Of a stretch of 64,000 nt of DNA, positions 1,755-58,378 are shown one piece after another. The stretch lies in contig OX030956.1 in assembly GCA_943735955.1 (NCBI GenBank), positions 62,501 to 126,500 of the forward strand, in the 5' to 3' direction. The DNA is from Piscicola geometra (Eukaryota; Annelida; Clitellata; Hirudinida; Piscicolidae). Position 1 is the stretch's first letter, and each line of letters starts with the position of its first letter. The notes beneath the pieces were generated by a model. The model did not search any database. It had not been told where the DNA came from and saw only the letters and a program-made list of their open reading frames with translations. The translations under genes and the position numbers were made by a program.

Positions 1755-2505
1755 ACTACTCACACTTGAATTTGATTAACAGTATTAAATAATTTTTTAC
1801 CTTTATATTCCTCATTTACATTATTCCACCTTTCAAATTATTTCCACTATTCCCCACTTTATTCATTTATTTTTTACTCACCTCTCCATTTAGATACTTC
1901 CACTTTTAGCCTTTTATTATCGTTCATACCTTGCTCTGTTTTATTACTTCATCATAGGCCTGATGAGACTCAAAACGAGTCGAAATCGATAGCCGTACAC
2001 TGATGAATAGGGATAAAAATAGAGCAAAAAAAGTTTGATTTTTTCTTTATTCATAGTTTTTTATTCCTCGACACGACTCTCGACCCTTCAGCGTGCCTCT
2101 TCACCACGCCACCTCCCTCTTCAAAAACAACACCAATAATTCTTCACCACTACACCACCACCCTCTAGCATCATCACAATCTTTCAAATTCGCCTTCACC
2201 TCCACGCCGCCACCCTCTTGCATAATCCCAAACCTTCAAATTTCTTCTCCACGCCGCCATCTTTCGTGCATCACCCCAATTTAAAGAACCATGAACAACA
2301 ACAACCCCAGCAACGGCAACAACAAAAGCAACAATTACAACAACTACAACAGTCACAACAACAACAACAGCCACAACAACCACAACAACAACAACATTTC
2401 ATGAGCACATGACGGCCAATTCGGCGCCAATAAACTTCTATTTTTCTTCTTCTTCTTCTAATTCTCTCAAAAAACCCCCTCAAACCTAACCCTAACCCAT
2501 CCTCC
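1755..2505 (+). mobile_element. Penelope-like terminal direct repeat, copy A
   Basis: This block of about 750 bp is repeated in the same orientation at 15879-16641 with scattered substitutions and small indels. Both copies start with ACTCACACTTGAAT, contain a hammerhead-type motif, an AAC/CAA-rich tract and the motif GGCGCCAA, and end in CCTAACCCTAACCC. Direct repeats around a Penelope-type reverse transcriptase, carrying a hammerhead ribozyme, fit the pseudo-LTRs of Penelope-like retroelements; Penelope-like elements are known to carry hammerhead ribozymes. Assignment is inference from structure and neighbours. Confidence 0.65.
1949..2006 (+). ncRNA. Type I hammerhead ribozyme motif, copy A
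   Basis: The conserved core is complete: CTGATGA at 1960-1966, stem II GACTC/GAGTC (1967-1971 with 1977-1981, loop AAAAC), then GAAA at 1982-1985. A minimal palindromic stem III ATC/GAT (1985-1990) precedes the cleavable A at 1991. Stem I is formed by GGC (1957-1959) with GCC (1992-1994) and, beyond an internal loop, TCATCA (1949-1954) with TGATGA (2001-2006). The stem III is too short to fold stably alone, which in this class suggests activity as a dimer. Expected cleavage is after 1991. Activity is not shown by sequence alone. Confidence 0.82.
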
Positions 2506-3624
2506 TTCTCCATCCCCCAATATCTTTCATACACACCACCACGTACGCACCAACGACCCTCCAAACCTTAACAAGAACCAAAAAATAGAACTACAAAAAT
2601 TAATTTCCCTCACCAAAAACAATGACTTAATTATACGCAAGGCCGACAAAGGTGACACCATAGTCATAATGAGCTCAACAAACTACAACCTAGAAGCACA
2701 CAGACAACTAAACGACCCTCAATAATACAAACCAACTATCCCAAACCAACATCTAAACACCTGTAACTTAATCAAAAGAATACTCTACACCCACAAACAC
2801 CTAATTGATAACAAAACCCGGCTCTTCCTAACCCCACCAAACAACCCCAAAATTAGAAAATTCTACCTACTCCCAAAAATCCATAAACCAATATCAAAGT
2901 GGCCCAACCCCTGCACCCCCCCGGGCATCAGCACAGCCCCAGCCTTAGCCAACATTTATTTACAAACACTAGACAATCACAATATAAGAAAATACAAACC
3001 TATCATATACAAACGCTACATTGATGACATAAATATTATTACCAACATAGACTATACCACATACTCCGACAATGAACACTTTATCACAACACTCTCACAC
3101 GACCTTAACTCATGCATCCCCAACATCAAAGTCGAACTCACACACAGTCCCACCACAACAACCTTCCTTGACCTCCAAATCACACTGAGGAACAACACCA
3201 TCTCAACAAGAATACACATAAAACCCACCAATACATTCTCTCTCCTACACAAAAGTTCAAACCATCCCCCCCGTATATTTAAAAGCATCTGCTCATCCTC
3301 CTTCATTCGATTTAGACGCCTCTCTACCCATAACCCCGACTACATACAAACATCAAAATCCTTCATCAAATCACTATCAAACAGAGGCTACAACCCCACC
3401 ACCCTAAAACGCCTAATGAAAAAACACCTTACCCACACACACACAAATACAAAAAACACTAACTCCGACCCTAAAACCCAAATCCTTCCATTAATCATAG
3501 AATACTCCAACACCAAACTCTCCCTTCTCACAAAAATTCAACATGCCATCAAACATACCCAACATTTAAATACAACAAGACCGATCAACGCCTTTGAAGT
3601 TGGCAGACCCTTGGGCCGCCTTCC
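2506..3624 (+). pseudogene. Penelope-like reverse transcriptase remnant
   Basis: One forward frame reads almost throughout as a reverse transcriptase of the Penelope-like class. It shows IIRKADKGDT near 2631, FYLLPKIHKP near 2860, APALANIYL near 2936, the catalytic-type YIDDI at about 3017-3031, FLDLQI near 3170, KPTNTFSLLHKSSNHPP near 3220 and RGYNPTTLKRLMKKHL near 3385. It is broken: an in-frame TAA lies at 2723-2725, and KWPNPCTPPG is joined directly to ISTAPALANIYL, so the segment with the first catalytic Asp and neighbouring RT motifs is deleted without loss of frame. No GIY-YIG endonuclease follows; the frame runs into the 28-bp array. An old non-functional copy. Confidence 0.78.
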
Positions 3625-6600
3625 CCACCCTTGAAGATCATCATCGCCTCCTCCACCCTTGAAGATCATCATCGCCTCCCCCACCCTTGAAGATCATCAT
3701 CGCCTCCTCCACCCTTGAAGATCATCATCGCCTCCCCCACCCTTGAAGATCATCATCGCCTCCTCCACCCTTGAAGATCATCATCGCCTCCTCCACCCTT
3801 GAAGATCATCATCGCCTCCCCCACCCTTGAAGATCATCATCGCCTCCCCCAGCCTTGAAGATCATCATCGCCTCTCCCACCCTTGAAGATCATCATCGCC
3901 TCTCCCACCCTTGAAGATCATCATCGCCTCCCCCACCCTTGAAGATCATCATCGCCTCTCCCACCCTTGAAGATCATCATCGCCTCCTCCACCCTTGAAG
4001 ATCATCATCGCCTCCCCCACCCTTGAAGATCATCATCGCCTCTCCCACCCTTGAAGATCATCATCGCCTCCTCCACCCTTGAAGATCATCATCGCCTCCT
4101 CCACCCTTGAAGATCATCATCGCCTCCTCCACCCTTGAAGATCATCATCGCCTCCCCCACCCTTGAAGATCATCATCGCCTCCCCCACCCTTGAAGATCA
4201 TCATCGCCTCCCCCACCCTTGAAGATCATCATCGCCTCCCCCACCCTTGAAGATCATCATCGCCTCCCCCACCCTTGAAGATCATCATCGCCTCCCCCAC
4301 CCTTGAAGATCATCATCGCCTCCCCCACCCTTGAAGATCATCATCGCCTCCCCCACCCTTGAAGATCATCATCGCCTCCCCCACCCTTGAAGATCATCAT
4401 CGCCTACCCCACCCTTGAAGATCATCATCGCCTCCTCCACCCTTGAAGATCATCATCGCCTCCTCCACCCTCGAAGATCATCATCGCCTCCTCCACCCTT
4501 GAAGATCATCATCGCCTCCCCCACCCTTGAAGATCATCATCGCCTCCCCCACCCTTGAAGATCATCCTCGCCTCCTCCACCCTTGAAGATCATCATCGCC
4601 TTCTCCACCCTTGAAGATCCTCATCGCCTCCCCCACCCTTGAAGATCATCATCGCCTCCCCCACCCTTGAAGATCATTTTTGCCTCCTCCACCCTTGAAG
4701 ATCATCATCGCCTCCCCCACCCTTGAAGATCATCATCGCCTCCCCCACCCTTGAAGATCATCATCGCCTCCCCCACCCTTGAAGATCATCATCGCCTCCC
4801 CCACCCTTGAAGATCATCATCGCCTCCCCCACCCTTGAAGATCATCATCGCCTCCCCCACCCTTGAAGATCATCATCGCCTCCCCCACCCTTGAAGATCA
4901 TCATCGCCTCCCCCACCCTTGAAGATCATCATCGCCTCCCCCACCCTTGAAGATCATCATCGCCTCCTCCACCCTTGAAGATCATCATCGCCTCCTCCAC
5001 CCTCGAAGATCATCATCGCCTCCTCCACCCTTGAAGATCATCATCGCCTCCCCCATCCTTGAAGATCATCATCGCCTCCCCCACCCTTGAAGATCATCAT
5101 CGCCTCCTCCACCCTTGAAGATCATCATCGCCTCCTCCACCCTTGAAGATCATCATCGCCTCCCCCACCCTTGAAGATCATCATCGCCTCCCCCACCCTT
5201 GAAGATCATCATCGCCTCCTCCACCCTTGAAGATCATCATCGCCTCCCCCACCCTTGAAGATCATCATCGCCTCCCCCACCCTTGAAGATCATCATTGCC
5301 TCCCCCACCCTTGAAGATCATCATCGCCTCCCCCACCCTTGAAGATCATCATCGCCTCCTCCACCCTTGAAGATCATCATCGCCTCCCCCACCCTTGAAG
5401 ATCATCATCGCCTCCTCCACCCTTGAAGATCATCATCGCCTCCTCCACCCTTGAAGATCATCATCGCCTCCCCCACCCTTGAAGATCATCATCGCCTCCC
5501 CCAGCCTTGAAGATCATCATCGCTTCTCCCACCCTTGAAGATCATCATCGCCTCCTCCACCCTTGAAGATCATCATCGCCTTCCCCACCCTTGAAGATCA
5601 TCATCGCCTCTCCCACCCTTGAAGATCATCATCGCCTTCCCCACCCTTGAAGATCATCATCGCCTCCCCCACCCTTGAAGATCATCATCGCCTCCCCCAC
5701 CCTTGAAGATCATCATCGCCTCCCCCACCCTTGAAGATCATCATCGCCTCCCCCACCCTTGAAGATCATCATCGCCTCCTCCACCCTTGAAGATCATCAT
5801 CGCCTCCCCCACCCTTGAAGATCATCATCGCCTCCCCCACCCTTGAAGATCATCATTGCCTTCCCCACCCTTGAAGATCATCATCGCCTCCCCCACCCTT
5901 GAAGATCATCATCGCCTCCCCCACCCTTGAAGATCATCATCGCCTCCTCCACCCTTGAAGATCATCATCGCCTCCTCCACCCTTGAAGATCATCATCGCC
6001 TCCCCCACCCTTGAAGATCATCATCGCTCCCCCCACCCTTGAAGATCATCATCGCCTCCCCCACCCTTGAAGATCGTCATCGCCTCCCCCACCCTTGAAG
6101 ATCATCATCGCCTCCCCCACCCTTGAAGATCATCATCGCCTCCTCCACCCTTGAAGATCATCATCGCCTCCTCCACTCTTGAAGATCATCATCGCCTCCC
6201 CCACCCTTGAAGATCATCATCGCCTCCCCCACCCTTGAAGATCATCATCGCCTCCTCCACCCTTGAAGATCATCATCGCCTCCCCCACCCTTGAAGATCA
6301 TCATCGCCTCCCCCACCCTTGAAGATCATCATTGCCTTCCCCACCCTTGAAGATCATCATCGCCTCCCCCACCCTTGAAGATCATCATCGCCTCCTCCAC
6401 CCTTGAAGATCATCATCGCCTCCCCCACCCTTGAAGATCATCATCGCCTCCTCCACCCTTGAAGATCATCATCGCCTCCCCCACCCTTGAAGATCATCAT
6501 CGCTCCCCCCACCCTTGAAGATCATCATCGCCTCCCCCACCCTTGAAGATCGTCATCGCCTCCTCCACCCTTGAAGATCATCATCGCCTCCTCCACCCTC

Positions 6601-9600
6601 GAAAATCATCATCGCCTTCTCCACCCTTGAAGATCATCATCGCCTCCCCCACCCTTGAAGATCATCATCGCCTCCCCCACCCTTGAAGATCATCATCGCC
6701 TCCCCCACCCTTGAAGATCATCATCGCCTCCCCCACCCTTGAAGATCATCATCGCCTCCTCCACCCTTGAAGATCATCATCGCCTCCTCCACCCTTGAAG
6801 ATCATCATCGCCTCCCCCACCCTTGAAGATCATCATCGCCTCCCCCACCCTTGAAGATCATCATCGCCTCCCCCACCCTCGAAGATCGTCATCGCCTCCC
6901 CCACCCTTGAAGATCATCATCGCCTCCCCCACTCTTGAAGATCATCATCGCCTCCTCCACCCTTGAAGATCATCATCGCCTCCTCCACCCTTGAAGATCA
7001 TCATCGCCTCCTCCACCCTTGAAGATCATCATCGCCTCCCCCACCCTTGAAGATCATCATCGCCTCCCCCACCCTTGAAGATCATCATCGCCTCCTCCAC
7101 CCTTGAAGATCATCATCGCCTCCTCCACCCTTGAAGATCGTCATCGCCTCCCCCACCCTTGAAGATCATCATCGCCTCCCCCACCCTTGAAGATCATCAT
7201 CGCCTCCCCCACCCTTGAAGATCATCATCGCCTCCCCCACCCTTGAAGATCATCATCGCCTCCTCCACCCTTGAAGATCATCATCGCCTCCTCCGCCCTT
7301 GAAGATCATCATCGCCTCCTCCACCCTTGAAGATCATCATCGCCTCCCCCACCCTTGAAGATCATCATCGCCTCCCCCACCCTTGAAGATCATCATCGCC
7401 TCCTCCACCCTTGAAGATCATCATCGCCTTCTCCACCCTTGAAGATCATCATCGCCTCCCCCACCCTTGAAGATCATCATCGCCTCCTCCACCCTTGAAG
7501 ATCATCATCGCCTCCTCCACCCTTGAAGATCATCATCGCCTCCCCCACCCTTGAAGATCATCATCGCCTCCTCCACCCTTGAAGATCATCATCGCCTCCC
7601 CCACCCTTGAAGATCATCATCGCCTCCTCCACCCTTGAAGATCATCATCGCCTCCTCCACCCTTGAAGATCATCATCGCCTCCCCCACCCTTGAAGATCA
7701 TCATCGCCTCCCCCACCCTTGAAGATCATCATCGCCTCTCCCACCCTTGAAGATCATCATCGCCTCCTCCACCCTTGAAGATCATCATCGCCTCCCCCAC
7801 CCTTGAAGATCATCATCGCCTCCCCCACCCTTGAAGATCATCATCGCCTCCTCCACCCTTGAAGATCATCATCGCCTCCTCCACCCTTGAAGATCATCAT
7901 CGCCTCCCCCACCCTTGAAGATCATCATCGCCTCCCCCACCCTTGAAGATCATCATCGCCTCCCCCACCCTTGAAGATCATCATCGCCTCCCCCACCCTT
8001 GAAGATCATCATCGCCTCCCCCACCCTTGAAGATCATCATCGCCTCCCCCACCCTTGAAGATCATCATCGCCTCCCCCACCCTTGAAGATCATCATCGCC
8101 TCCCCCACCCTTGAAGATCATCATCGCCTCCCCCACCCTTGAAGATCATCATCGCCTCCCCCACCCTTGAAGATCATCATCGCCTCCCCCACCCTTGAAG
8201 ATCATCATTGCCTCCCCCACCCTTGAAGATCATCATCGCCTCCCCCACCCTTGAAGATCATCATCGCCTCCTCCACCCTTGAAGATCATCATCGCCTCCC
8301 CCACCCTTGAAGATCATCATCGCCTCCTCCACCCTTGAAGATCATCATCGCCTCCTCCACCCTTGAAGATCATCATCGCCTCCCCCACCCTTGAAGATCA
8401 TCATCGCCTCCCCCAGCCTTGAAGATCATCATCGCTTCTCCCACCCTTGAAGATCATCATCGCCTCCTCCACCCTTGAAGATCATCATCGCCTTCCCCAC
8501 CCTTGAAGATCATCATCGCCTCTCCCACCCTTGAAGATCATCATCGCCTCCTCCACCCTTGAAGATCATCATCGCCTCCCCCACCCTTGAAGATCATCAT
8601 CGCCTCCTCCACCCTTGTAGATCATCATCGCCTCCCCCACCCTTGAAGATCATCATCGCCTCCTCCACCCTTGAAGATCATCATCGCCTCCTCCACCCTT
8701 GAAGATCATCATCGCCTCTCCCACCCTTGAAGATCATCATCGCCTCCCCCACCCTTGAAGATCATCATCGCCTCCCCCACCCTTGAAGATCATCATCGCC
8801 TCCCCCACCCTTGAAGATCATCATCGCCTCCCCCACCCTTGAAGATCATCATCGCCTCCCCCACCCTTGAAGATCATCATCGCCTCCCCCACCCTTGAAG
8901 ATCATCATCGCTCCCCCCACCCTTGAAGATCATCATCGCCTCCCCCACCCTTGAAGATCATCATCGCCTCCCCCACCCTTGAAGATCATCATCGCCTCCC
9001 CCACCCTTGAAGATCATCATCGCCTCCCCCACCCTTGAAGATCATCATCGCCTCCCCCACCCTTGAAGATCATCATCGCCTCCTCCACCCTCGAAGATCT
9101 TCATCGCCTCCTCCACCCTTGAAGATCATCATCGCCTCCCCCACCCTTGAAGATCATCATCGCCTCCCCCACCCTTGAAGATCATCATCGCCTCCTCCAC
9201 CCTTGAAGATCATCATCGCCTCCTCCACTCTTGAAGATCATCATCGCCTCCCCCACCCTTGAAGATCATCATCGCCTCCCCCACCCTTGAAGATCATCAT
9301 CGCCTCCTCCACCCTTGAAGATCATCATCGCCTCCCCCACCCTTGAAGATCATCATCGCCTCCCCCACCCTTGAAGATCATCATTGCCTTCCCCACCCTT
9401 GAAGATCATCATCGCCTCCCCCACCCTTGAAGATCATCATCGCCTCCCCCACCCTTGAAGATCATCATCGCCTCCTCCACCCTTGAAGATCATCATCGCC
9501 TCCTCCACCCTTGAAGATCATCATCGCCTCCCCCACCCTTGAAGATCATCATCGCTCCCCCCACCCTTGAAGATCATCATCGCCTCCCCCACCCTTGAAG

Positions 9601-12600
9601 ATCATCATCGCCTCCTCCACCCTTGAAGATCATCATCGCCTCCTCCACCCTCGAAAATCATCATCGCCTTCTCCACCCTTGAAGATCATCATCGCCTCCC
9701 CCACCCTTGAAGATCATCATCGCTTCCCCCACCCTTGAAGATCATCATCGCCTCCCCCACCCTTGAAGATCATCATCGCCTCCCCCACCCTTGAAGATCA
9801 TCATCGCCTCCTCCACCCTTGAAGATCATCATCGCCTCCTCCACCCTTGAAGATCATCATCGCCTCCCCCACCCTTGAAGATCATCATCGCCTCCCCCAC
9901 CCTTGAAGATCATCATCGCCTCCCCCACCCTCGAAGATCGTCATCGCCTCCCCCACCCTTGAAGATCATCATCGCCTCCCCCACTCTTGAAGATCATCAT
10001 CGCCTCCTCCACCCTTCAAGATCATCATCGCCTCCTCCACCCTTGAAGATCATCATCGCCTCCTCCACCCTTCAAGATCATCATCGCCTCCCCCACCCTT
10101 GAAGATCATCATCGCCTCCCCCACCCTTGAAGATCATCATCGCCTCCTCCACCCTTGAAGATCATCATCGCCTCCTCCACCCTTGAAGATCGTCATCGCC
10201 TCCCCCACCCTTGAAGATCATCATCGCCTCCCCCACCCTTGAAGATCATCATCGCCTCCCCCACCCTTGAAGATCATCATCGCCTCCCCCACCCTTGAAG
10301 ATCATCATCGCCTCCTCCACCCTTGAAGATCATCATCGCCTCCTCCGCCCTTGAAGATCATCATCGCCTCCTCCACCCTTGAAGATCATCATCGCCTCCC
10401 CCACCCTTGAAGATCATCATCGCCTCCCCCACCCTTGAAGATCATCATCGCCTCCTCCACCCTTGAAGATCATCATCGCCTTCTCCACCCTTGAAGATCA
10501 TCATCGCCTCCCCCACCCTTGAAGATCATCATCGCCTCCTCCACCCTTGAAGATCATCATCGCCTCCTCCACCCTTGAAGATCATCATCGCCTCCCCCAC
10601 CCTTGAAGATCATCATCGCCTCCTCCACCCTTGAAGATCATCATCGCCTCCCCCACCCTTGAAGATCATCATCGCCTCCTCCACCCTTGAAGATCATCAT
10701 CGCCTCCTCCACCCTTGAAGATCATCATCGCCTCCCCCACCCTTGAAGATCATCATCGCCTCCCCCACCCTTGAAGATCATCATCGCCTCTCCCACCCTT
10801 GAAGATCATCATCGCCTCCTCCACCCTTGAAGATCATCATCGCCTCCCCCACCCTTGAAGATCATCATCGCCTCCCCCACCCTTGAAGATCATCATCGCC
10901 TCCTCCACCCTTGAAGATCATCATCGCCTCCTCCACCCTTGAAGATCATCATCGCCTCCCCCACCCTTGAAGATCATCATCGCCTCCCCCACCCTTGAAG
11001 ATCATCATCGCCTCCCCCACCCTTGAAGATCATCATCGCCTCCCCCACCCTTGAAGATCATCATCGCCTCCCCCACCCTTGAAGATCATCATCGCCTCCC
11101 CCACCCTTGAAGATCATCATCGCCTCCCCCACCCTTGAAGATCATCATCGCCTCCCCCACCCTTGAAGATCATCATCGCCTCCTCCACCCTTGAAGATCA
11201 TCATCGCCTCCTCCACCCTTGAAGATCATCATCGCCTCCCCCACCCTTGAAGATCATCATCGCCTCCCCCACCCTTGAAGATCATCATCGCCTCCCCCAC
11301 CCTCGAAGATCGTCATCGCCTCCCCCACCCTTGAAGATCATCATCGCCTCCCCCACTCTTGAAGATCATCATCGCCTCCTCCACCCTTGAAGATCATCAT
11401 CGCCTCCTCCACCCTTGAAGATCATCATCGCCTCCTCCACCCTTCAAGATCATCATCGCCTCCCCCACCCTTGAAGATCATCATCGCCTCCCCCACCCTT
11501 GAAGATCATCATCGCCTCCTCCACCCTTGAAGATCATCATCGCCTCCTCCACCCTTGAAGATCGTCATCGCCTCCCCCACCCTTGAAGATCATCATCGCC
11601 TCCCCCACCCTTGAAGATCATCATCGCCTCCCCCACCCTTGAAGATCATCATCGCCTCCCCCACCCTTGAAGATCATCATCGCCTCCTCCACCCTTGAAG
11701 ATCATCATCGCCTCCTCCGCCCTTGAAGATCATCATCGCCTCCTCCACCCTTGAAGATCATCATCGCCTCCCCCACCCTTGAAGATCATCATCGCCTCCC
11801 CCACCCTTGAAGATCATCATCGCCTCCTCCACCCTTGAAGATCATCATCGCCTTCTCCACCCTTGAAGATCATCATCGCCTCCCCCACCCTTGAAGATCA
11901 TCATCGCCTCCTCCACCCTTGAAGATCATCATCGCCTCCTCCACCCTTGAAGATCATCATCGCCTCCCCCACCCTTGAAGATCATCATCGCCTCCTCCAC
12001 CCTTGAAGATCATCATCGCCTCCCCCACCCTTGAAGATCATCATCGCCTCCTCCACCCTTGAAGATCATCATCGCCTCCTCCACCCTTGAAGATCATCAT
12101 CGCCTCCCCCACCCTTGAAGATCATCATCGCCTCCCCCACCCTTGAAGATCATCATCGCCTCTCCCACCCTTGAAGATCATCATCGCCTCCTCCACCCTT
12201 GAAGATCATCATCGCCTCCCCCACCCTTGAAGATCATCATCGCCTCCCCCACCCTTGAAGATCATCATCGCCTCCTCCACCCTTGAAGATCATCATCGCC
12301 TCCTCCACCCTTGAAGATCATCATCGCCTCCCCCACCCTTGAAGATCATCATCGCCTCCCCCACCCTTGAAGATCATCATCGCCTCCCCCACCCTTGAAG
12401 ATCATCATCGCCTCCCCCACCCTTGAAGATCATCATCGCCTCCCCCACCCTTGAAGATCATCATCGCCTCCCCCACCCTTGAAGATCATCATCGCCTCCC
12501 CCACCCTTGAAGATCATCATCGCCTCCCCCACCCTTGAAGATCATCATCGCCTCCCCCACCCTTGAAGATCATCATCGCCTCCCCCACCCTTGAAGATCA

Positions 12601-15600
12601 TCATCGCCTCCTCCACCCTTGAAGATCATCATCGCCTCCTCCACCCTCGAAGATCATCATCGCCTCCTCCACCCTTGAAGATCATCATCGCCTCCCCCAC
12701 CCTTGAAGATCATCATCGCCTCCCCCACCCTTGAAGATCATCCTCGCCTCCTCCACCCTTGAAGATCATCATCGCCTCCTCCACCCTTGAAGATCATCAT
12801 CGCCTCCCCCACCCTTGAAGATCATCATCGCCTCCCCCACCCTTGAAGATCATCATCGCCTCCTCCACCCTTGAAGATCATCATCGCCTCCCCCACCCTT
12901 GAAGATCATCATCGCCTCCCCCACCCTTGAAGATCATCATCGCCTCCCCCACCCTTGAAGATCATCATCGCCTCCCCCACCCTTGAAGATCATCATCGCC
13001 TCCCCCACCCTTGAAGATCATCATCGCCTCCCCCACCCTTGAAGATCATCATCGCCTCCCCCACCCTTGAAGATCATCATCGCCTCCCCCACCCTTGAAG
13101 ATCATCATCGCCTCCCCCACCCTTGAAGATCATCATCGCCTCCTCCACCCTTGAAGATCATCATCGCCTCCTCCACCCTCGAAGATCATCATCGCCTCCT
13201 CCACCCTTGAAGATCATCATCGCCTCCCCCATCCTTGAAGATCATCATCGCCTCCCCCACCCTTGAAGATCATCATCGCCTCCTCCACCCTTGAAGATCA
13301 TCATCGCCTCCTCCACCCTTGAAGATCATCATCGCCTCCCCCACCCTTGAAGATCATCATCGCCTCCCCCACCCTTGAAGATCATCATCGCCTCCTCCAC
13401 CCTTGAAGATCATCATCGCCTCCCCCACCCTTGAAGATCATCATCGCCTCCCCCACCCTTGAAGATCATCATTGCCTCCCCCACCCTTGAAGATCATCAT
13501 CGCCTCCCCCACCCTTGAAGATCATCATCGCCTCCTCCACCCTTGAAGATCATCATCGCCTCCCCCACCCTTGAAGATCATCATCGCCTCCTCCACCCTT
13601 GAAGATCATCATCGCCTCCTCCACCCTTGAAGATCATCATCGCCTCCCCCACCCTTGAAGATCATCATCGCCTCCCCCAGCCTTGAAGATCATCATCGCT
13701 TCTCCCACCCTTGAAGATCATCATCGCCTCCTCCACCCTTGAAGATCATCATCGCCTTCCCCACCCTTGAAGATCATCATCGCCTCTCCCACCCTTGAAG
13801 ATCATCATCGCCTCCTCCACCCTTGAAGATCATCATCGCCTCCCCCACCCTTGAAGATCATCATCGCCTCCTCCACCCTTGTAGATCATCATCGCCTCCC
13901 CCACCCTTGAAGATCATCATCGCCTCCTCCACCCTTGAAGATCATCATCGCCTCCTCCACCCTTGAAGATCATCATCGCCTCTCCCACCCTTGAAGATCA
14001 TCATCGCCTCCCCCACCCTTGAAGATCATCATCGCCTCCCCCACCCTTGAAGATCATCATCGCCTCCCCCACCCTTGAAGATCATCATCGCCTCCCCCAC
14101 CCTTGAAGATCATCATCGCCTCCCCCACCCTTGAAGATCATCATCGCCTCCCCCACCCTTGAAGATCATCATCGCTCCCCCCACCCTTGAAGATCATCAT
14201 CGCCTCCCCCACCCTTGAAGATCATCATCGCCTCCCCCACCCTTGAAGATCATCATCGCCTCCCCCACCCTTGAAGATCATCATCGCCTCCCCCACCCTT
14301 GAAGATCATCATCGCCTCCCCCACCCTTGAAGATCATCATCGCCTCCTCCACCCTCGAAGATCTTCATCGCCTCCTCCACCCTTGAAGATCATCATCGCC
14401 TCCCCCACCCTTGAAGATCATCATCGCCTCCCCCACCCTTGAAGATCATCATCGCCTCCCCCACCCTTGAAGATCATCATCGCCTCCTCCACCCTTGAAG
14501 ATCATCATCGCCTCCCCCACCCTTGAAGATCATCATCGCCTCCCCCACCCTTGAAGATCATCATTGCCTTCCCCACCCTTGAAGATCATCATCGCCTCCC
14601 CCACCCTTGAAGATCATCATCGCCTCCCCCACCCTTGAAGATCATCATCGCCTCCTCCACCCTTGAAGATCATCATCGCCTCCCCCACCCTTGAAGATCA
14701 TCATCGCTCCCCCCACCCTTGAAGATCATCATCGCCTCCCCCACCCTTGAAGATCATCATCGCCTCCTCCACCCTTGAAGATCATCATCGCCTCCTCCAC
14801 CCTCGAAAATCATCATCGCCTTCTCCACCCTTGAAGATCATCATCGCCTCCCCCACCCTTGAAGATCATCATCGCCTCCCCCACCCTTGAAGATCATCAT
14901 CGCCTCCCCCACCCTTGAAGATCATCATCGCCTCCCCCACCCTTGAAGATCATCATCGCCTCCTCCACCCTTGAAGATCATCATCGCCTCCTCCACCCTT
15001 GAAGATCATCATCGCCTCCCCCACCCTTGAAGATCATCATCGCCTCCCCCACCCTTGAAGATCATCATCGCCTCCCCCACCCTCGAAGATCGTCATCGCC
15101 TCCCCCACCCTTGAAGATCATCATCGCCTCCCCCACCCTTGAAGATCATCATCGCCTCCTCCACCCTTGAAGATCATCATCGCCTCCTCCACCCTTGAAG
15201 ATCATCATCGCCTCCTCCACCCTTGATGATCATCATCGCCTCCCCCACCCTTGAAGATCATCATCGCCTCCCCCACCCTTGAATATCATCATCGCCTCCC
15301 CCACCCTTGAAGATCATCATCGCCTCCTCCACCCTTTAAGATCGTCATCGCCTCCCCCACCCTTGAAGATCATCATCGCCTCCCCCACCCTTGAAGATCA
15401 TCATCGCCTCCCCCACCCTTGAAGATCATCATCGCCTCCCCCACCCTTGAAGATCATCATCGCCTCCTCCACCCTTGAAGATCATCATCGCCTCCCGCAC
15501 CCTTGAAGATCATCATCGCCTCCCCCACCCTTGAAGATCATCATCGCCTCCTCCACCCTTGAAGATCATCATCGCCTTCTCCACCCTTGAAGATCATCAT

Positions 15601-15784
15601 CGCCTCCCCCACCCTTGAAGATCATCATCGCCTCCTCCACCCTTGAAGATCATCATCGCCTCCTCCACCCTTGAAGATCATCATCGCCTCCCCCACCCTT
15701 GAAGATCATCATCGCCTCCTCCACCCTTGAAGATCATCATCGCTCCCCCCACCCTTGAAGATCGTCATCGCCTCCCCCACACTC
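3625..15784. repeat. 28-bp satellite, 434 units in one register
   Basis: The consensus is CACCCTTGAAGATCATCATC followed by GCCTCCCC, with C/T variation near the end. The GAAGAT of the unit falls at 3633 and still falls on a multiple of 28 at 15757, giving exactly 434 unit positions with no net insertion or deletion. Units differ by substitutions. Rare variants recur at spacings that are multiples of 28: the GTAGATC variant near 8616 and 13880, and the CAGCCTTG/CGCTTCTCC pair near 8414 and 13678, both 5,264 bp apart, so large blocks have been duplicated. Non-coding: TGA recurs every 84 nt in each forward frame. Confidence 0.95.
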
Positions 15785-15878
15785 CCTCCCACACACCCTC
15801 CCAACCTTCAGGAGCACTGAACGAACAATACGGCGCCAAAACTTCCCTTCCTCCTTCCTAACCCCCACAAACCTAACC
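15785..15878 (+). mobile_element. Tail fragment of a Penelope-like terminal repeat
   Basis: The stretch with GAGCACTGAACG, ACGGCGCCAAAACTTC and CCTAACCCT resembles the last 100 bp of the terminal repeats near 2401-2500 and 16551-16640. It abuts the start of copy B, so a repeat tail is joined to a repeat head, as in tandemly arranged Penelope-like copies. Confidence 0.5.
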
Positions 15879-16641
15879 CTACTCACACTTGAATCTGATT
15901 AACAGTATTAATTAATTTTTTACCTTTACATTCCTCATTTACATTATTCCACCTTTCTCATTATTTCCACTACTCACACCTTCATTCCCCACTTTTTTAT
16001 TTGTTTTTTACACACTTCTCCATTTAGATACTTCCACTTTTCGCTTTTTATTATCGTTCACCTTGCTCTATTTTGTTTCATCATAGGCCTGGTGAGGCTC
16101 AAATTGAGTCGAAATCGATAGCCGTTCACTGATAAATAAAAATTAGAGCAAAAAAAGTTTTGTTTTTTCTTCTTTATTTATAGTTATTTGTTCTCGACAC
16201 GACTCTCCACCCTTCGGCGTGCTTCTTCGCCACGCCACCTCCCTCTTCAAAAACAACACCAATAATTCTTCACCACTACACCACCACCCTCTAGCATCAT
16301 CACAATCTTTCAAATTCGCCTTCACCTCCACGCCGCCACCCTCTTGCATCATCCCAAACCTTCAAATTTCTTCTCCACGCCGCCATCTTTCGTGCATCAC
16401 CCCAATTTAAAGAACCATGAACAACAACAACACCAACAACGGCAACAACAATAGCAACAATTACAACAATAATAACAACAACCACAACAACTACAACAGT
16501 CACAACAACAACAACAGCCTCAACAACCACAACAACAACAGCATCTCATGAGCACATGACGGCCAATACGGCGCCAAAAAACTTCTCTTCTTCTTCTTCT
16601 AATTTTCTCAAAAACCCCCACAACCCTAACCCTAACCCTAA
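15879..16641 (+). mobile_element. Penelope-like terminal direct repeat, copy B
   Basis: Second copy of the block at 1755-2505, same orientation and order of internal features, beginning ACTCACACTTGAATCTGATT and ending in three CCCTAA-type repeats. Homology with copy A extends over the whole block, with a longer AAC-rich tract here. It closes the right side of the 28-bp array, so array plus reverse transcriptase remnant lie between two direct repeats. Confidence 0.65.
16078..16136 (+). ncRNA. Degenerate hammerhead motif, copy B
   Basis: Same architecture as the motif at 1949-2006, but the core reads CTGGTGA (16089-16095) instead of CTGATGA, changing an invariant core adenine. Stem II GGCTC/GAGTC still pairs through a G-U wobble, GAAA and the short palindromic stem III are kept, and the outer part of stem I is weakened (TCATCA against TGATAA). 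Probably inactive. Confidence 0.65.
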
Positions 16642-17239
16642 CGCCAGGAGTCTTCAGACTCCATCCGACCCATTCCCAACCCTAACCCTAACATTTTGAA
16701 AGTATTGAGTCTTATTTATTGTTCTATTCAAAACCTTTCAAAGTTTTCTGCTTTGTATACAGTGATTCAACCATTTTGAATATGCAACAATTAAACCATA
16801 TTTCCAGTCGATCAAAGTTAAAGTTCACCAAGATTTGGTAATGGCTAAACAAAATAAATAAATGGCTAATCAAATAATCATCTTAAGATTGGGATGAAAA
16901 TATATGTGGTCGGATGGTTACACGAATGATGGATAAAGAGTTGAATGCACCAAAATGAATTCAACCTAAAACAAATACAGTGAAAGAAAGCTGCAGAGGT
17001 TTTGGCCTTATTCGATGCTTGCTTAATACAATTTTCAAGAAGTCAATATTCTTTCGATTAGTTGGGTTTAATTCTCATATTCTTTTAAAAAACACTGATA
17101 TTTACTTTAAGGATACAATTTTAAACTATAAGTGGCTTCATAATCGCTGAAAAACGCCCCAATTCTTTCAAATGTACCCTGCTTGCAAACCAAGGACTCC
17201 AAAAAACACCATTGCCGAGTTGAAGATGCTTCAAGACAT
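16642..17239. other. Unannotated AT-rich stretch
   Basis: Apart from a short CCCTAA run at 16677-16692 no coding or repeat structure was recognised. It is the downstream flank of the minus-strand calpain gene, and TTTATT near 16708 could be its poly(A) signal on the minus strand. Confidence 0.5.
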
Positions 17240-32352
<15,113 letters not shown>

Positions 32353-36100: not shown

Positions 36101-39100
36101 CTTGGGCACACATTCACACACAAACACATACACACTCTCACTTGGACACACACACAAACACATACACACGAAAACTTGGACACACCAAGCTAAAACATGC
36201 ATGCAAGCTTGGGCACACACACACACAAAAAACATACGCACGCACACACATACACACGCAAACACACAGAGTTACCGGGTGTTCAAGGAGTGCGACTCTT
36301 TCACGATGGACCTTCTCTACCTCTGCAACCCTTCCACCAGCGACAACCGCTGCCAAGTGCCTTCTCATTTACTTCCTTCGAGGCAGTGTAGCAGTGTGGT
36401 AGTGTGGCAGTGTGGCAGTGTGGTAGTGTGGTAGTGTAGCAGTGTGGTAGTGAGGCAGTGTGGTAGTGTGGCAGTGTGGCAGTGTGGCAGTGTGGTAGTG
36501 AGGCAGTGTGGTAGTGTGGCAGTGTGGTAGTGTGGCAGTGTGGCAGTGTGGTAGTGTGGTAGTGTAGCAGTGTGGTAGTGAGGCAGTGTGGTAGTGAGGC
36601 AGTGTAGCAGTGTGGCAGTGTGGTAGTGAGGCAGTGTGGTAGTGTGGCAGTGTGGTAGTGTGGCAGTGTGGCAGTGTGGTAGTGAGGCAGTGTGGTAGTG
36701 TGGCAGTGTAGCAGTGTGGTAGTGAGGCAGTGTGGTAGTGTGGCAGTGTAGCAGTGTGGCAGTGTGGTAGTGAGGCAGTGTGGTAGTGTGGCAGTGTAGC
36801 AGTGTGGCAGTGTGGTAGTGTGGTAGTGAGGCAGTGTGGTAGTGAGGCAGTGTGGTAGTGAGGCAGTGTGGCAGTGTGGTAGTGTGGTAGTGAGGCAGTG
36901 TGGCAGTGAGGCAGTGTGGTAGTGTGGCAGTGTGGCAGTGTGGCAGTGTGGTAGTGTGGTAGTGAGGCAGTGTGGTAGTGTGGCAGTGAGGCAGTGTGGC
37001 AGTGTGGTAGTGTAGCAGTGTGGTAGTGTGGTAGTGAGGCAGTGTAGCAGTGTGGTAGTGTGGCAGTGTGGTAGTGAGGCAGTGTGGTAGTGTGGCAGTG
37101 AGGCAGTGTGGTAGTGTGGTAGTGTGGCAGTGTGGTAGTGTGGCAGTGTGGCAGTGTGGTAGTGTGGTAGTGAGGCAGTGTGGTAGTGTGGCAGTGAGGC
37201 AGTGTGGCAGTGTGGCAGTGTGGTAGTGTGGTAGTGTAGCAGTGTGGTAGTGAGGCAGTGTGGTAGTGTGGCAGTGTGGCAGTGTGGCAGTGTGGTAGTG
37301 AGGCAGTGTGGTAGTGTGGCAGTGTGGTAGTGTGGCAGTGTGGCAGTGTGGTAGTGTGGTAGTGTAGCAGTGTGGTAGTGAGGCAGTGTGGTAGTGAGGC
37401 AGTGTAGCAGTGTGGCAGTGTGGTAGTGAGGCAGTGTGGTAGTGTGGCAGTGTGGTAGTGTGGCAGTGTGGCAGTGTGGCAGTGTGGTAGTGTAGCAGTG
37501 TGGTAGTGTGGTAGTGAGGCAGTGTAGCAGTGTGGTAGTGTGGCAGTGAGGCAGTGTGGTAGTGAGGCAGTGTGGTAGTGTAGCAGTGTGGTAGTGTGGC
37601 AGTGAGGCAGTGTGGTAGTGAGGCAGTGTGGTAGTGTAGCAGTGTGGTAGTGTGGCAGTGAGGCAGTGTGGCAGTGAGGCAGTGTGGTAGTGTGGCAGTG
37701 TGGTAGTGTGGTAGTGTGGCAGTGTAGCAGTGTGGTAGTGAGGCAGTGAGGCAGTGTAGCAGTGTGGTAGTGTGGCAGTGTGGCAGTGTGGTAGTGTGGT
37801 AGTGTAGCAGTGTGGTAGTGAGGCAGTGTGGTAGTGTGGCAGTGTGGCAGTGTGGTAGTGAGGCAGTGTGGTAGTGTGGCAGTGTGGTAGTGTGGCAGTG
37901 TGGCAGTGTGGTAGTGTGGTAGTGTAGCAGTGTGGTAGTGAGGCAGTGTGGTAGTGAGGCAGTGTAGCAGTGTGGCAGTGTGGTAGTGAGGCAGTGTGGT
38001 AGTGTGGCAGTGTGGTAGTGTGGCAGTGTGGCAGTGTGGCAGTGTGGTAGTGTGGCAGTGTAGCAGTGTGGCAGTGTGGTAGTGAGGCAGTGTGGTAGTG
38101 TGGCAGTGTAGCAGTGTGGCAGTGTGGTAGTGTGGTAGTGAGGCAGTGTGGTAGTGAGGCAGTGTGGTAGTGAGGCAGTGTGGCAGTGTGGTAGTGTGGT
38201 AGTGAGGCAGTGTGGCAGTGAGGCAGTGTGGTAGTGTGGCAGTGTGGCAGTGTGGCAGTGTGGTAGTGTGGTAGTGAGGCAGTGTGGTAGTGTGGCAGTG
38301 AGGCAGTGTGGTAGTGAAGCAGTGTAGCAGTGTGGTAGTGTGGTAGTGAGGCAGTGTAGCAGTGTGGTAGTGTGGCAGTGTGGTAGTGAGGCAGTGTGGT
38401 AGTGTGGCAGTGAGGCAGTGTGGCAGTGTGGTAGTGTAGCAGTGTGGTAGTGTGGTAGTGAGGCAGTGTAGCAGTGTGGTAGTGTGGCAGTGTGGTAGTG
38501 AGGCAGTGTGGTAGTGTGGCAGTGAGGCAGTGTGGTAGTGTGGTAGTGTGGCAGTGTGGTAGTGTGGCAGTGTGGCAGTGTGGTAGTGTGGTAGTGAGGC
38601 AGTGTGGTAGTGTGGCAGTGAGGCAGTGTGGCAGGTGGCAGTGTGGTAGTGTGGTAGTGTAGCAGTGTGGTAGTGAGGCAGTGTGGTAGTGTGGCAGTGT
38701 GGCAGTGTGGCAGTGTGGTAGTGAGGCAGTGTGGTAGTGTGGCAGTGTGGTAGTGTGGCAGTGTGGCAGTGTGGTAGTGTGGTAGTGTAGCAGTGTGGTA
38801 GTGAGGCAGTGTGGTAGTGAGGCAGTGTAGCAGTGTGGCAGTGTGGTAGTGAGGCAGTGTGGTAGTGTGGCAGTGTGGTAGTGTGGCAGTGTGGCAGTGT
38901 GGCAGTGTGGTAGTGTAGCAGTGTGGTAGTGTGGTAGTGAGGCAGTGTAGCAGTGTGGTAGTGTGGCAGTGAGGCAGTGTGGTAGTGAGGCAGTGTGGTA
39001 GTGTAGCAGTGTGGTAGTGTGGCAGTGAGGCAGTGTGGTAGTGAGGCAGTGTGGTAGTGTAGCAGTGTGGTAGTGTGGCAGTGAGGCAGTGTGGCAGTGA

Positions 39101-42100
39101 GGCAGTGTGGTAGTGTGGTAGTGTGGCAGTGTGGTAGTGTGGTAGTGTGGCAGTGTAGCAGTGTGGTAGTGAGGCAGTGTAGCAGTGTGGTAGTGTGGCA
39201 GTGTGGCAGTGTGGTAGTGTGGTAGTGTAGCAGTGTGGTAGTGAGGCAGTGTGGTAGTGTGGCAGTGTGGCAGTGTGGCAGTGTGGTAGTGAGGCAGTGT
39301 GGTAGTGTGGCAGTGTGGTAGTGTGGCAGTGTGGCAGTGTGGTAGTGTGGTAGTGTAGCAGTGTGGTAGTGAGGCAGTGTGGTAGTGAGGCAGTGTAGCA
39401 GTGTGGCAGTGTGGTAGTGAGGCAGTGTGGTAGTGTGGCAGTGTGGTAGTGTGGCAGTGTGGCAGTGTGGTAGTGTGGCAGTGTAGCAGTGTGGCAGTGT
39501 GGTAGTGAGGCAGTGTGGTAGTGTGGCAGTGTAGCAGTGTGGCAGTGTGGTAGTGAGGCAGTGTGGTAGTGAGGCAGTGTGGTAGTGAGGCAGTGTGGTA
39601 GTGTGGTAGTGAGGCAGTGTGGCAGTGAGGCAGTGTGGTAGTGTGGCAGTGTGGCAGTGTGGCAGTGTGGTAGTGTGGTAGTGAGGCAGTGTGGTAGTGT
39701 GGCAGTGAGGCAGTGTGGTAGTGAAGCAGTGTAGCAGTGTGGTAGTGTGGTAGTGAGGCAGTGTAGCAGTGTGGTAGTGTGGCAGTGTGGTAGTGAGGCA
39801 GTGTGGTAGTGTGGCAGTGAGGCAGTGTGGTAGTGTGGTAGTGTGGCAGTGTGGTAGTGTGGCAGTGTGGCAGTGTGGTAGTGTGGTAGTGAGGCAGTGT
39901 GGTAGTGTGGCAGTGAGGCAGTGTGGTAGTGTGGCAGTGTGGTAGTGTAGCAGTGTGGTAGTGTGGTAGTGAGGCAGTGTAGCAGTGTGGTAGTGTGGCA
40001 GTGAGGCAGTGTGGTAGTGAGGCAGTGTGGTAGTGTAGCAGTGTGGTAGTGTGGCAGTGTGGTAGTGAGGCAGTGTGGTAGTGTAGCAGTGTGGTAGTGT
40101 GGCAGTGAGGCAGTGTGGCAGTGAGGCAGTGTGGTAGTGTGGTAGTGTGGCAGTGTGGTAGTGTGGTAGTGTAGCAGTGTGGTAGTGAGGCAGTGTGGTA
40201 GTGTGGCAGTGTGGTAGTGAGGCAGTGAGGCAGTGTGGTAGTGTGGTAGTGTAGCAGTGTGGTAGTGTGGCAGTGAGGCAGTGTGGTAGTGTGGCAGTGT
40301 AGCAGTGTGGTAGTGAGGCAGTGTGGTAGTGTGGCAGTGTGGCAGTGTGGTAGTGAGGCAGTGTGGTAGTGTGGTAGTGTGGTAGTGTAGCAGTGTGGTA
40401 GTGTGGCAGTGAGGCAGTGAGGCAGTGTGGTAGTGTGGCAGTGTGGTAGTGAGGCAGTGTGGTAGTGTGGCAGTGTAGCAGTGTGGCAGTGTGGTAGTGA
40501 GGCAGTGTGGTAGTGAGGCAGTGTGGTAGTGAGGCAGTGTGGCAGTGTGGTAGTGTGGTAGTGAGGCAGTGTGGTAGTGTGGCAGTGAGGCAGTGTGGTA
40601 GTGTGGCAGTGTGGTAGTGTGGCAGTGTGGCAGTGTGGTAGTGTGGTAGTGAGGCAGTGTGGCAGTGAGGCAGTGTGGCAGTGTGGTAGTGTAGCAGTGT
40701 GGTAGTGTGGTAGTGAGGCAGTGTAGCAGTGTGGTAGTGTGGCAGTGTGGTAGTGTGGCAGTGTAGCAGTGTGGCAGTGTGGTAGTGAGGCAGTGTGGTA
40801 GTGTGGCAGTGTAGCAGTGTGGCAGTGTGGTAGTGTGGTAGTGAGGCAGTGTGGTAGTGAGGCAGTGTGGTAGTGAGGCAGTGTGGCAGTGTGGTAGTGT
40901 GGTAGTGAGGCAGTGTGGCAGTGAGGCAGTGTGGTAGTGTGGCAGTGTGGCAGTGTGGCAGTGTGGTAGTGTGGTAGTGAGGCAGTGTGGTAGTGTGGCA
41001 GTGAGGCAGTGTGGTAGTGAAGCAGTGTAGCAGTGTGGTAGTGTGGTAGTGAGGCAGTGTAGCAGTGTGGTAGTGTGGCAGTGTGGTAGTGTGGTAGTGA
41101 GGCAGTGTGGTAGTGTGGCAGTGAGGCAGTGTGGCAGTGTGGTAGTGTAGCAGTGTGGTAGTGTGGTAGTGAGGCAGTGTAGCAGTGTGGTAGTGTGGCA
41201 GTGTGGTAGTGAGGCAGTGTGGTAGTGTGGCAGTGAGGCAGTGTGGTAGTGTGGTAGTGTGGCAGTGTGGTAGTGTGGCAGTGTGGCAGTGTGGTAGTGT
41301 GGTAGTGAGGCAGTGTGGTAGTGTGGCAGTGAGGCAGTGTGGCAGGTGGCAGTGTGGTAGTGTGGTAGTGTAGCAGTGTGGTAGTGAGGCAGTGTGGTAG
41401 TGTGGCAGTGTGGCAGTGTGGCAGTGTGGTAGTGAGGCAGTGTGGTAGTGTGGCAGTGTGGTAGTGTGGCAGTGTGGCAGTGTGGTAGTGTGGTAGTGTA
41501 GCAGTGTGGTAGTGAGGCAGTGTGGTAGTGAGGCAGTGTAGCAGTGTGGCAGTGTGGTAGTGAGGCAGTGTGGTAGTGTGGCAGTGTGGTAGTGTGGCAG
41601 TGTGGCAGTGTGGCAGTGTGGTAGTGTAGCAGTGTGGTAGTGTGGTAGTGAGGCAGTGTAGCAGTGTGGTAGTGTGGCAGTGAGGCAGTGTGGTAGTGAG
41701 GCAGTGTGGTAGTGTAGCAGTGTGGTAGTGTGGCAGTGAGGCAGTGTGGTAGTGAGGCAGTGTGGTAGTGTAGCAGTGTGGTAGTGTGGCAGTGAGGCAG
41801 TGTGGCAGTGAGGCAGTGTGGTAGTGTGGTAGTGTGGCAGTGTGGTAGTGTGGTAGTGTGGCAGTGTAGCAGTGTGGTAGTGAGGCAGTGTAGCAGTGTG
41901 GTAGTGTGGCAGTGTGGCAGTGTGGTAGTGTGGTAGTGTAGCAGTGTGGTAGTGAGGCAGTGTGGTAGTGTGGCAGTGTGGCAGTGTGGCAGTGTGGTAG
42001 TGAGGCAGTGTGGTAGTGTGGCAGTGTGGTAGTGTGGCAGTGTGGCAGTGTGGTAGTGTGGTAGTGTAGCAGTGTGGTAGTGAGGCAGTGTGGTAGTGAG

Positions 42101-45100
42101 GCAGTGTAGCAGTGTGGCAGTGTGGTAGTGAGGCAGTGTGGTAGTGTGGCAGTGTGGTAGTGTGGCAGTGTGGCAGTGTGGTAGTGTGGCAGTGTAGCAG
42201 TGTGGCAGTGTGGTAGTGAGGCAGTGTGGTAGTGTGGCAGTGTAGCAGTGTGGCAGTGTGGTAGTGAGGCAGTGTGGTAGTGAGGCAGTGTGGTAGTGAG
42301 GCAGTGTGGTAGTGTGGTAGTGAGGCAGTGTGGCAGTGAGGCAGTGTGGTAGTGTGGCAGTGTGGCAGTGTGGCAGTGTGGTAGTGTGGTAGTGAGGCAG
42401 TGTGGTAGTGTGGCAGTGAGGCAGTGTGGTAGTGAAGCAGTGTAGCAGTGTGGTAGTGTGGTAGTGAGGCAGTGTAGCAGTGTGGTAGTGTGGCAGTGTG
42501 GTAGTGAGGCAGTGTGGTAGTGTGGCAGTGAGGCAGTGTGGTAGTGTGGTAGTGTGGCAGTGTGGTAGTGTGGCAGTGTGGCAGTGTGGTAGTGTGGTAG
42601 TGAGGCAGTGTGGTAGTGTGGCAGTGAGGCAGTGTGGTAGTGTGGCAGTGTGGTAGTGTAGCAGTGTGGTAGTGTGGTAGTGAGGCAGTGTAGCAGTGTG
42701 GTAGTGTGGCAGTGAGGCAGTGTGGTAGTGAGGCAGTGTGGTAGTGTAGCAGTGTGGTAGTGTGGCAGTGTGGTAGTGAGGCAGTGTGGTAGTGTAGCAG
42801 TGTGGTAGTGTGGCAGTGAGGCAGTGTGGCAGTGAGGCAGTGTGGTAGTGTGGTAGTGTGGCAGTGTGGTAGTGTGGTAGTGTAGCAGTGTGGTAGTGAG
42901 GCAGTGTGGTAGTGTGGCAGTGTGGTAGTGAGGCAGTGAGGCAGTGTGGTAGTGTGGTAGTGTAGCAGTGTGGTAGTGTGGCAGTGAGGCAGTGTGGTAG
43001 TGTGGCAGTGTAGCAGTGTGGTAGTGAGGCAGTGTGGTAGTGTGGCAGTGTGGCAGTGTGGTAGTGAGGCAGTGTGGTAGTGTGGTAGTGTGGTAGTGTA
43101 GCAGTGTGGTAGTGTGGCAGTGAGGCAGTGAGGCAGTGTGGTAGTGTGGCAGTGTGGTAGTGAGGCAGTGTGGTAGTGTGGCAGTGTAGCAGTGTGGCAG
43201 TGTGGTAGTGAGGCAGTGTGGTAGTGAGGCAGTGTGGTAGTGAGGCAGTGTGGCAGTGTGGTAGTGTGGTAGTGAGGCAGTGTGGTAGTGTGGCAGTGAG
43301 GCAGTGTGGTAGTGTGGCAGTGTGGTAGTGTGGCAGTGTGGCAGTGTGGTAGTGTGGTAGTGAGGCAGTGTGGCAGTGAGGCAGTGTGGCAGTGTGGTAG
43401 TGTAGCAGTGTGGTAGTGTGGTAGTGAGGCAGTGTAGCAGTGTGGTAGTGTGGCAGTGAGGCAGTGTGGTAGTGTGGTAGTGAGGCAGTGTGGTAGTGTG
43501 GCAGTGAGGCAGTGTGGCAGTGAGGCAGTGTGGCAGTGTGGTAGTGTGGCAGTGTAGCAGTGTGGTAGTGAGGCAGTGAGGCAGTGTGGTAGTGTGGTAG
43601 TGTGGCAGTGTGGTAGTGTGGTAGTGTAGCAGTGTGGTAGTGAGGCAGTGTGGTAGTGTGGCAGTGTGGTAGTGAGGCAGTGAGGCAGTGTGGTAGTGTG
43701 GTAGTGTAGCAGTGTGGTAGTGTGGCAGTGAGGCAGTGTGGTAGTGTGGCAGTGTAGCAGTGTGGTAGTGAGGCAGTGTGGTAGTGTGGCAGTGTGGCAG
43801 TGTGGTAGTGAGGCAGTGTGGTAGTGTGGTAGTGTGGTAGTGTAGCAGTGTGGTAGTGTGGCAGTGAGGCAGTGAGGCAGTGTGGTAGTGTGGCAGTGTG
43901 GTAGTGAGGCAGTGTGGTAGTGTGGCAGTGTAGCAGTGTGGCAGTGTGGTAGTGAGGCAGTGTGGTAGTGAGGCAGTGTGGTAGTGAGGCAGTGTGGCAG
44001 TGTGGTAGTGTGGTAGTGAGGCAGTGTGGTAGTGTGGCAGTGAGGCAGTGTGGTAGTGTGGCAGTGTGGTAGTGTGGCAGTGTGGCAGTGTGGTAGTGTG
44101 GTAGTGTGGTAGTGTGGTAGTGTAGCAGTGTGGTAGTGTGGCAGTGAGGCAGTGTGGTAGTGTGGCAGTGTGGTAGTGAGGCAGTGTGGTAGTGTGGCAG
44201 TGTAGCAGTGTGGCAGTGTGGTAGTGAGGCAGTGTGGTAGTGAGGCAGTGTGGTAGTGAGGCAGTGTGGCAGTGTGGTAGTGTGGCAGTGTGGCAGTGTG
44301 GTAGTGTGGTAGTGTGGTAGTGTGGTAGTGTAGCAGTGTGGTAGTGTGGCAGTGTGGCAGTGTGGTAGTGTGGTAGTGTGGTAGTGTGGTAGTGTAGCAG
44401 TGTGGTAGTGTGGCAGTGAGGCAGTGTGGTAGTGTGGCAGTGTAGCAGTGTGGTAGTGAGGCAGTGTGGTAGTGTGGCAGTGTGGCAGTGTGGTAGTGAG
44501 GCAGTGAGGCAGTGTGGTAGTGTGGTAGTGTGGTAGTGTAGCAGTGTGGTAGTGTGGCAGTGAGGCAGTGTGGTAGTGTGGCAGTGTGGTAGTGAGGCAG
44601 TGTGGTAGTGTAACAGTGTGGTAGTGTGGTAGTGAGGCAGTGTGGTAGTGTGGCAGTGTAGCAGTGTGGTAGTGTGGCAGTGAGGCAGTGTGGTAGTGTG
44701 GCAGTGTGGTAGTGAGGCAGTGTAGCAGTGTGGTAGTGTGGCAGTGAGGCAGTGTGGTAGTGTGGTAGTGTGGCATTGAGGCAGTGTGGTAGTGAAGCAG
44801 TGTGGCAGTGTGGTAGTGTGGTAGTGAGGCAGTGTGGTAGTGTGGTAGTGAGGCAGTGTGGCATCATGGTGCGAGATGAAAGTGTATGATGCTTTTTTGA
44901 AGCTGTTTGCCTTCACCATCCCATCCACAACCGATGCACCCATCAACCATCCCATCCACAACCGATGCACTCATCAACCATCCGCTCCACAACCGATGCA
45001 CCCATCAACCATCCCATCCACAACCGATGCACCCATCAACCATCCCATCCACAACCAACGCACCCATCAACCATCCCATCCACAACTGATGCACCCATCA

Positions 45101-55023: not shown

Positions 55024-58378
<3,355 letters not shown>

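Follow-up and report, generated by a model that had tools for sequence, protein, structure and literature searches.

A 434-unit, 28-bp minisatellite at the stop codon and 3′ UTR of an endonuclease-less telomeric retroelement in Piscicola geometra

A 12-kb array of 28-bp units in the Piscicola geometra genome sits exactly where relatives of its host retroelement have one or two copies of that 28-bp sequence, spanning the stop codon of their reverse transcriptase (RT). We conclude, with a probability of about 0.85, that the array grew there by repeated block duplication after the element had landed. The array lies in a stretch of 64,000 nucleotides of contig C2 (C2:62501-126500), hereafter the window, in an assembly of 171,024,195 bases and 66 contigs. 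It forms part of a head-to-tail chain that comprises a 0.75-kb unit with a hammerhead motif (unit A), a 5′-truncated RT copy (unit B) and a second 0.75-kb unit (unit C), each terminated by CCCTAA-like sequence. The features of the locus, in window coordinates, are:

1755..2510, + strand: short unit A, with a 5′ region, a hammerhead, a CAA-rich stretch and a tail ending CCTAACCCTAACCC (2485-2498)
1948..2007, + strand: hammerhead motif of unit A, with an intact core and predicted cleavage after 1991 (pattern match C2:64458-64493)
2503..3634, + strand: unit B, a 5′-truncated, endonuclease-less RT copy, with TAA at 2723-2725 and the TGA stop at 3632-3634 in the first 28-bp unit
3617..15780, + strand: array of 434 units of 28 bp, spanning the RT stop codon and 3′ UTR of unit B
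15781..15881, + strand: 3′ tail of unit B, ending CCTAACCCTA, which matches the tails behind the RT in relatives
15879..16642, + strand: short unit C, ending CCCTAACCCTAACCCTAAC, 88% identical to unit A
16077..16136, + strand: hammerhead motif of unit C, with an altered core (CTGGTGA)

The array is highly regular. All 434 units, a count taken from the assembly that may differ from the true number, are exactly 28 bp long, with a mean of 0.62 mismatches to the consensus and 33 distinct unit types. A pattern search of the window at three mismatches returned 434 matches, against none in 100 shuffles, in agreement with a preliminary description of a 12-kb, 434-unit satellite at this site. Across the genome, the same unit at up to three mismatches gave 441 matches, 438 forward and 3 reverse. 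Beyond the 434 in the window, the remaining seven (three on C1, one on C10, one on C15 and two on C11) all fall at RT ends of the window's RT family, and this search found neither a long array outside the window nor any 28-bp array apart from the element. This distribution indicates that the element's own stop codon and 3′ UTR gave rise to the array, which has not spread. The preliminary description had proposed an origin in the element's own 3′ coding region; the element's 3′ end is upheld as the source, but relatives with one or two units at the same site place the origin not in coding sequence but at the stop codon and 3′ UTR.

The RT frame runs from 2462 to 2722, meets a TAA stop and continues from 2726 to 3631. 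The second piece has an RVT_1 match that passes the curated cut-off (PF00078, E 1.9e-7), confirming the RT remnant noted earlier, while the first has no Pfam match above its cut-off. Compared with the copies on C1 and at the C2 tip, unit B lacks 378 bp in frame at 2925/2926, and both edges of the deletion read GGG. The frame does lead into the array, as first described, but it ends there: the stop is the sixth codon of the array, within the first 28-bp unit, and the final residues read GRLPHP*. An intact relative at the C2 tip (751 aa; RVT_1 match, E 5.1e-9) ends GRLLHP* at the same place, its stop likewise lying in the first 28-bp unit; no endonuclease has therefore been displaced. A whole-genome search with PF01541 (GIY-YIG), which divergent domains could escape, yielded a single match, at C6:6743426, away from the listed RT loci. 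The family thus has an RT domain and no GIY-YIG behind it, the intact frame being followed by the tail and CCCTAA repeats, and the idea that the array had taken the place of an endonuclease was ruled out by the C2-tip frame end and the lone PF01541 match. We found no full-length copies with an endonuclease and without 28-bp units; the relatives have no endonuclease and do have one or two units. We presume the family to be Penelope-like from its architecture and from its motifs. A PDB profile search with the RT returned RTs of other kinds, with no telomerase among the matches. RT matches also recur at constant spacing, of 5,074 bp at C2:9300-29596 and 5,849 bp at C35:11799-29346, where whole elements seem to stand in tandem.

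The relatives show what the site looks like in the absence of an array. Among nine RT ends read (an RT-end fragment at C2:8506924 was left out), six carry two units (C10, C1 twice, the C2 tip, C11 and C15) and three about one (C8, C3 and C16, the C16 unit being diverged). In all nine the tail follows after these one or two units; none has three or more, against 434 in the window copy. The commonest type of array unit (type A, 226 copies) agrees with the C8 copy in its first 26 bases, and the second (type B, 119 copies) is identical to the first unit of C1a, C11 and C15. The position of the array, at the exact site of one or two units in relatives, suggests that it grew in place by repeated DNA duplication.

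The internal order of the array points the same way. Duplicated blocks of variant units, up to 73 units long, cover 354 of the 434 units, which points to duplication at the level of DNA. Blocks recur at distances of 109 units (block of 73, 67 matching), 292 (55, 51), 49 (51, 50), 158 (55, 54) and 188 (37, 37), and the best block score was 81.5 compared with 12.4 in 20 shuffles. This structure informs on how the array was enlarged, not on the first steps from two units. Spread through RNA or rolling-circle intermediates, suggested in the preliminary description, finds no support, as the long array is confined to one locus and its blocks indicate DNA duplication.

Tandem repeats make up 33,083 of the 64,000 window bases (merged tandem-repeat rows). 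Three of the five other arrays in the window (16-bp, 31-bp at 44915 and 116-bp) hold exact duplicates far above those in 20 unit shuffles, although the 16-bp and 116-bp arrays contain indels, so that shuffling at a fixed period controls them only weakly. The exact duplicate in the 33-bp array barely exceeds its shuffles (82 vs 74 bp), and that in the 31-bp array at 24396 does not (186 vs 221; 20 unit shuffles). Block duplication therefore occurs in this region apart from the element too. Within the 16-bp array (36385-44863, about 534 copies), a stretch of 2,371 bp is duplicated exactly.

Three other accounts of the array were weighed. In the first, which we regard as very unlikely, repeated slippage of the RT on the 28-nt doublet while it copied its RNA, much as telomerase does on its template, produced the first long array, and recombination enlarged the product later. 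Most relatives do have a two-unit doublet in their template, and Penelope-type RTs share ancestry with telomerase (PMC3846280). However, the present array consists mostly of duplicated blocks with shared variants, unlike the outcome of repeated copying of one template, and no other copy has even three units in the nine RT ends read. Were slippage the origin, a telomeric retroelement could write a new satellite at a chromosome end, which recombination then enlarges. It is also highly improbable that the unit number is an artefact of assembly: long, near-identical blocks are hard to assemble and the figure comes from the assembly, but 434 units without a length change, with 33 unit types in structured order, argue against it. 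Least probable of all, and already contradicted within this genome, is the capture or insertion of an existing 28-bp satellite in place of an endonuclease, which would fit a long, homogeneous array in a degraded element but is opposed by the want of a long array elsewhere, by the fact that all seven outside matches are one- or two-unit occurrences at the family's RT ends, and by array-less relatives with the same stop and tail; capture followed by spread was ruled out by the same seven matches.

Growth in place accounts for the array within unit B; the units on either side have a history of their own. Positions 1756-2498 and 15879-16638 form the two direct repeats of about 750 bp seen at the outset, with 88% identity over 780 alignment columns. 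They had been viewed as the terminal repeats of one element. We dropped that reading in favour of separate units, since 0.75-kb units also occur without this RT and each piece has its own CCCTAA-like tail. Relatives of unit A without the window's RT family were found on C5, C17, C4, C9 and C10 and at other loci; the genome search scored 40 of 855 candidates, so that copy counts are lower bounds. From its anatomy, we infer that the chain arose by successive additions, the outermost last. At C6:10063399-10075302, short-unit relatives form a pair separated by 7,591 bp, some 110-120 kb away from the contig end and in the orientation opposite to that at other ends. A matching series of short units stands behind about 200 CCCTAA repeats both near the start of C17 (C17:11-24 kb) and 1.2 Mb inside C4 (C4:11.161-11.180 Mb), reflecting either a duplication or an assembly matter.

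Hammerhead motifs had been reported in both direct repeats, and both are present, though they score below Rfam cut-offs. The motif of unit A is a minimal type I hammerhead: the core and both stems I and II are present, and a six-base palindrome stands where stem III would be. At its gathering scores, Rfam reported neither a hammerhead nor any other match in the window, and ARAGORN found no tRNA; the motif of unit A reached 14.8 bits with Hammerhead_HH9, against a cut-off of 52, and that of unit C gave no Rfam hammerhead match up to E 10. A core pattern nonetheless matched seven times in the genome and never in the reversed control, with six of the seven in element loci that we read and the seventh at C6:2409578. 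Eight copies, picked from the core-pattern matches and relatives with near-identical copies and the divergent C2:49710 motif left out, were aligned: 89.7% of cells were paired, and five pairs had changed on both sides (0 of 500 shuffles), in support of the fold, while one outer stem I pair fails in six of the eight. The CTGGTGA core of unit C is, we assume, an inactivating change. The hammerhead belongs to the short units, whose RNA it would probably trim, and no link between it and the array was found in the sequences analysed. In Penelope elements and Terminons, minimal type I motifs are described as having no helix III and may act as dimers (PMC7761336).

The elements are associated with chromosome ends. 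The C2 tip (C2:1-10000) starts inside an ORF, which the intact 751-aa RT frame overlaps; behind that frame come a short tail, then 516 CCCTAA repeats, then a second element family. The ATG of the RT frame (1050) overlaps the stop of the upstream ORF (TGA 1054-1056), as if translation were coupled. Further in, at 42-56 kb of C2, are five more RT frames on the same strand, four of them with a CCCTAA run within about 130 bp behind. Eight further contig tips were examined (C1 left, C3 right, C5 left, C8, C10, C11, C15 right and C17 left). CCCTAA repeats terminate five, namely C1 left, C8, C10 (40 bp only), C11 and C15 right; the C3 right tip sequence has none, the C5 left tip has 78 repeats at 3.5 kb and the C17 left tip is N. 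Just inside the terminal CCCTAA, the right tips of C11 and C10 hold extended three-base-like repeats in which very long reading frames stay open. The genome also encodes a telomerase RNA-binding domain, at C3:11028776 (E 2.4e-28). Around the locus, a long N stretch adjoins the left edge of the window (C2:57.5-62.5 kb), and the window contains another RT fragment (26589-28004; RVT_1, E 1.5e-13) and a universal stress protein exon (57860-58378; Usp, E 8.7e-16).

Truncated RT copies are joined to CCCTAA at their 5′ ends at three different points in four loci: one point is common to C1 and C15, another occurs in C10 and the third in the window. The telomere-repeat/RT junctions at C1:305797-305816 and C15:6803449-6803468 are identical, which suggests exchange between chromosome ends. 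Orientation was tested on 43 rows, one per copy (32 short-unit rows at E ≤1e-40 and 11 RT rows at ≥58% identity), excluding other RT families and the smaller RT fragments. Of the 11 contig ends that have copies within 150 kb, 10 have every 3′ end pointing inward (one-sided p 0.006); with a 400-kb limit the figure is 11 of 13 (p 0.011). At the right end of C6, four rows all have the opposite orientation. Internal copies, away from contig ends, occur on C4, C10 and C12 and at C2:15.5 Mb.

This anatomy suggests how the locus may have formed. The elements would reverse-transcribe by priming from the G-rich telomere end, the CCCUAA tail of the element RNA pairing with the telomeric overhang. Such priming would leave copies with the 3′ end inward and the 5′ end cut short, with telomeric repeats or the next unit as their cap. 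Within copy B, the long array would have grown from a 28-bp doublet already in place, probably by unequal exchange or replication-coupled duplication.

Endonuclease-deficient Penelope-like elements (PLEs) are described as priming at exposed chromosome ends, after which the truncated 5′ end receives telomeric repeats (PMC3846280). Like Athena of bdelloid rotifers, the elements described here have an RT without GIY-YIG, two overlapping ORFs, 5′ truncations joined to telomeric repeats, and head-to-tail chains at chromosome ends. Unlike in Athena-type PLEs, the host telomere is TTAGGG and one copy holds a 12-kb array; the likeness is one of architecture. With Terminons, the giant telomeric Penelope-type elements of Adineta vaga, they share 3′ telomeric repeats, hammerhead motifs and chains. 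However, telomeric repeats stand directly beside the 3′ hammerhead in Terminons (PMC6431247), whereas the short-unit hammerhead ends about 480 nt upstream of the telomere-like tail (2007 vs 2485), so we do not class the locus as a Terminon; nor were accessory genes seen in the copies read here. Canonical Penelope elements with pseudo-LTRs likewise have a hammerhead in repeated flanking sequence and a tandem arrangement, but here no frame with RT and GIY-YIG lies between terminal repeats, the flanks being separate telomere-tailed units. Among LTR elements, Ogre retrotransposons gave rise to satellites expanded from 3′ UTR repeats (PMC7004042). There too, a short 3′ UTR tandem repeat became a long array in a favoured chromosome region, although the present case involves a presumed Penelope-type element, a single subtelomeric locus and a unit spanning the stop codon. 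The titles and abstract openings surveyed name no minisatellite from a Penelope 3′ UTR. The locus joins two known kinds, a presumed endonuclease-deficient telomeric PLE and a satellite derived from a retroelement 3′ UTR.

Satellite growth from a retroelement 3′ UTR is known; what distinguishes this case is that both states stand side by side, with no unit match elsewhere. The origin of the minisatellite is unusually clear, as its starting state (one or two units in relatives) and its end state (434 units) are found in one genome. The same genome encodes a telomerase domain and has TTAGGG repeats next to telomeric elements that lack an endonuclease, whose chains also include short units with hammerheads. 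The locus is therefore well suited to testing why small tandem repeats are enlarged in subtelomeres.
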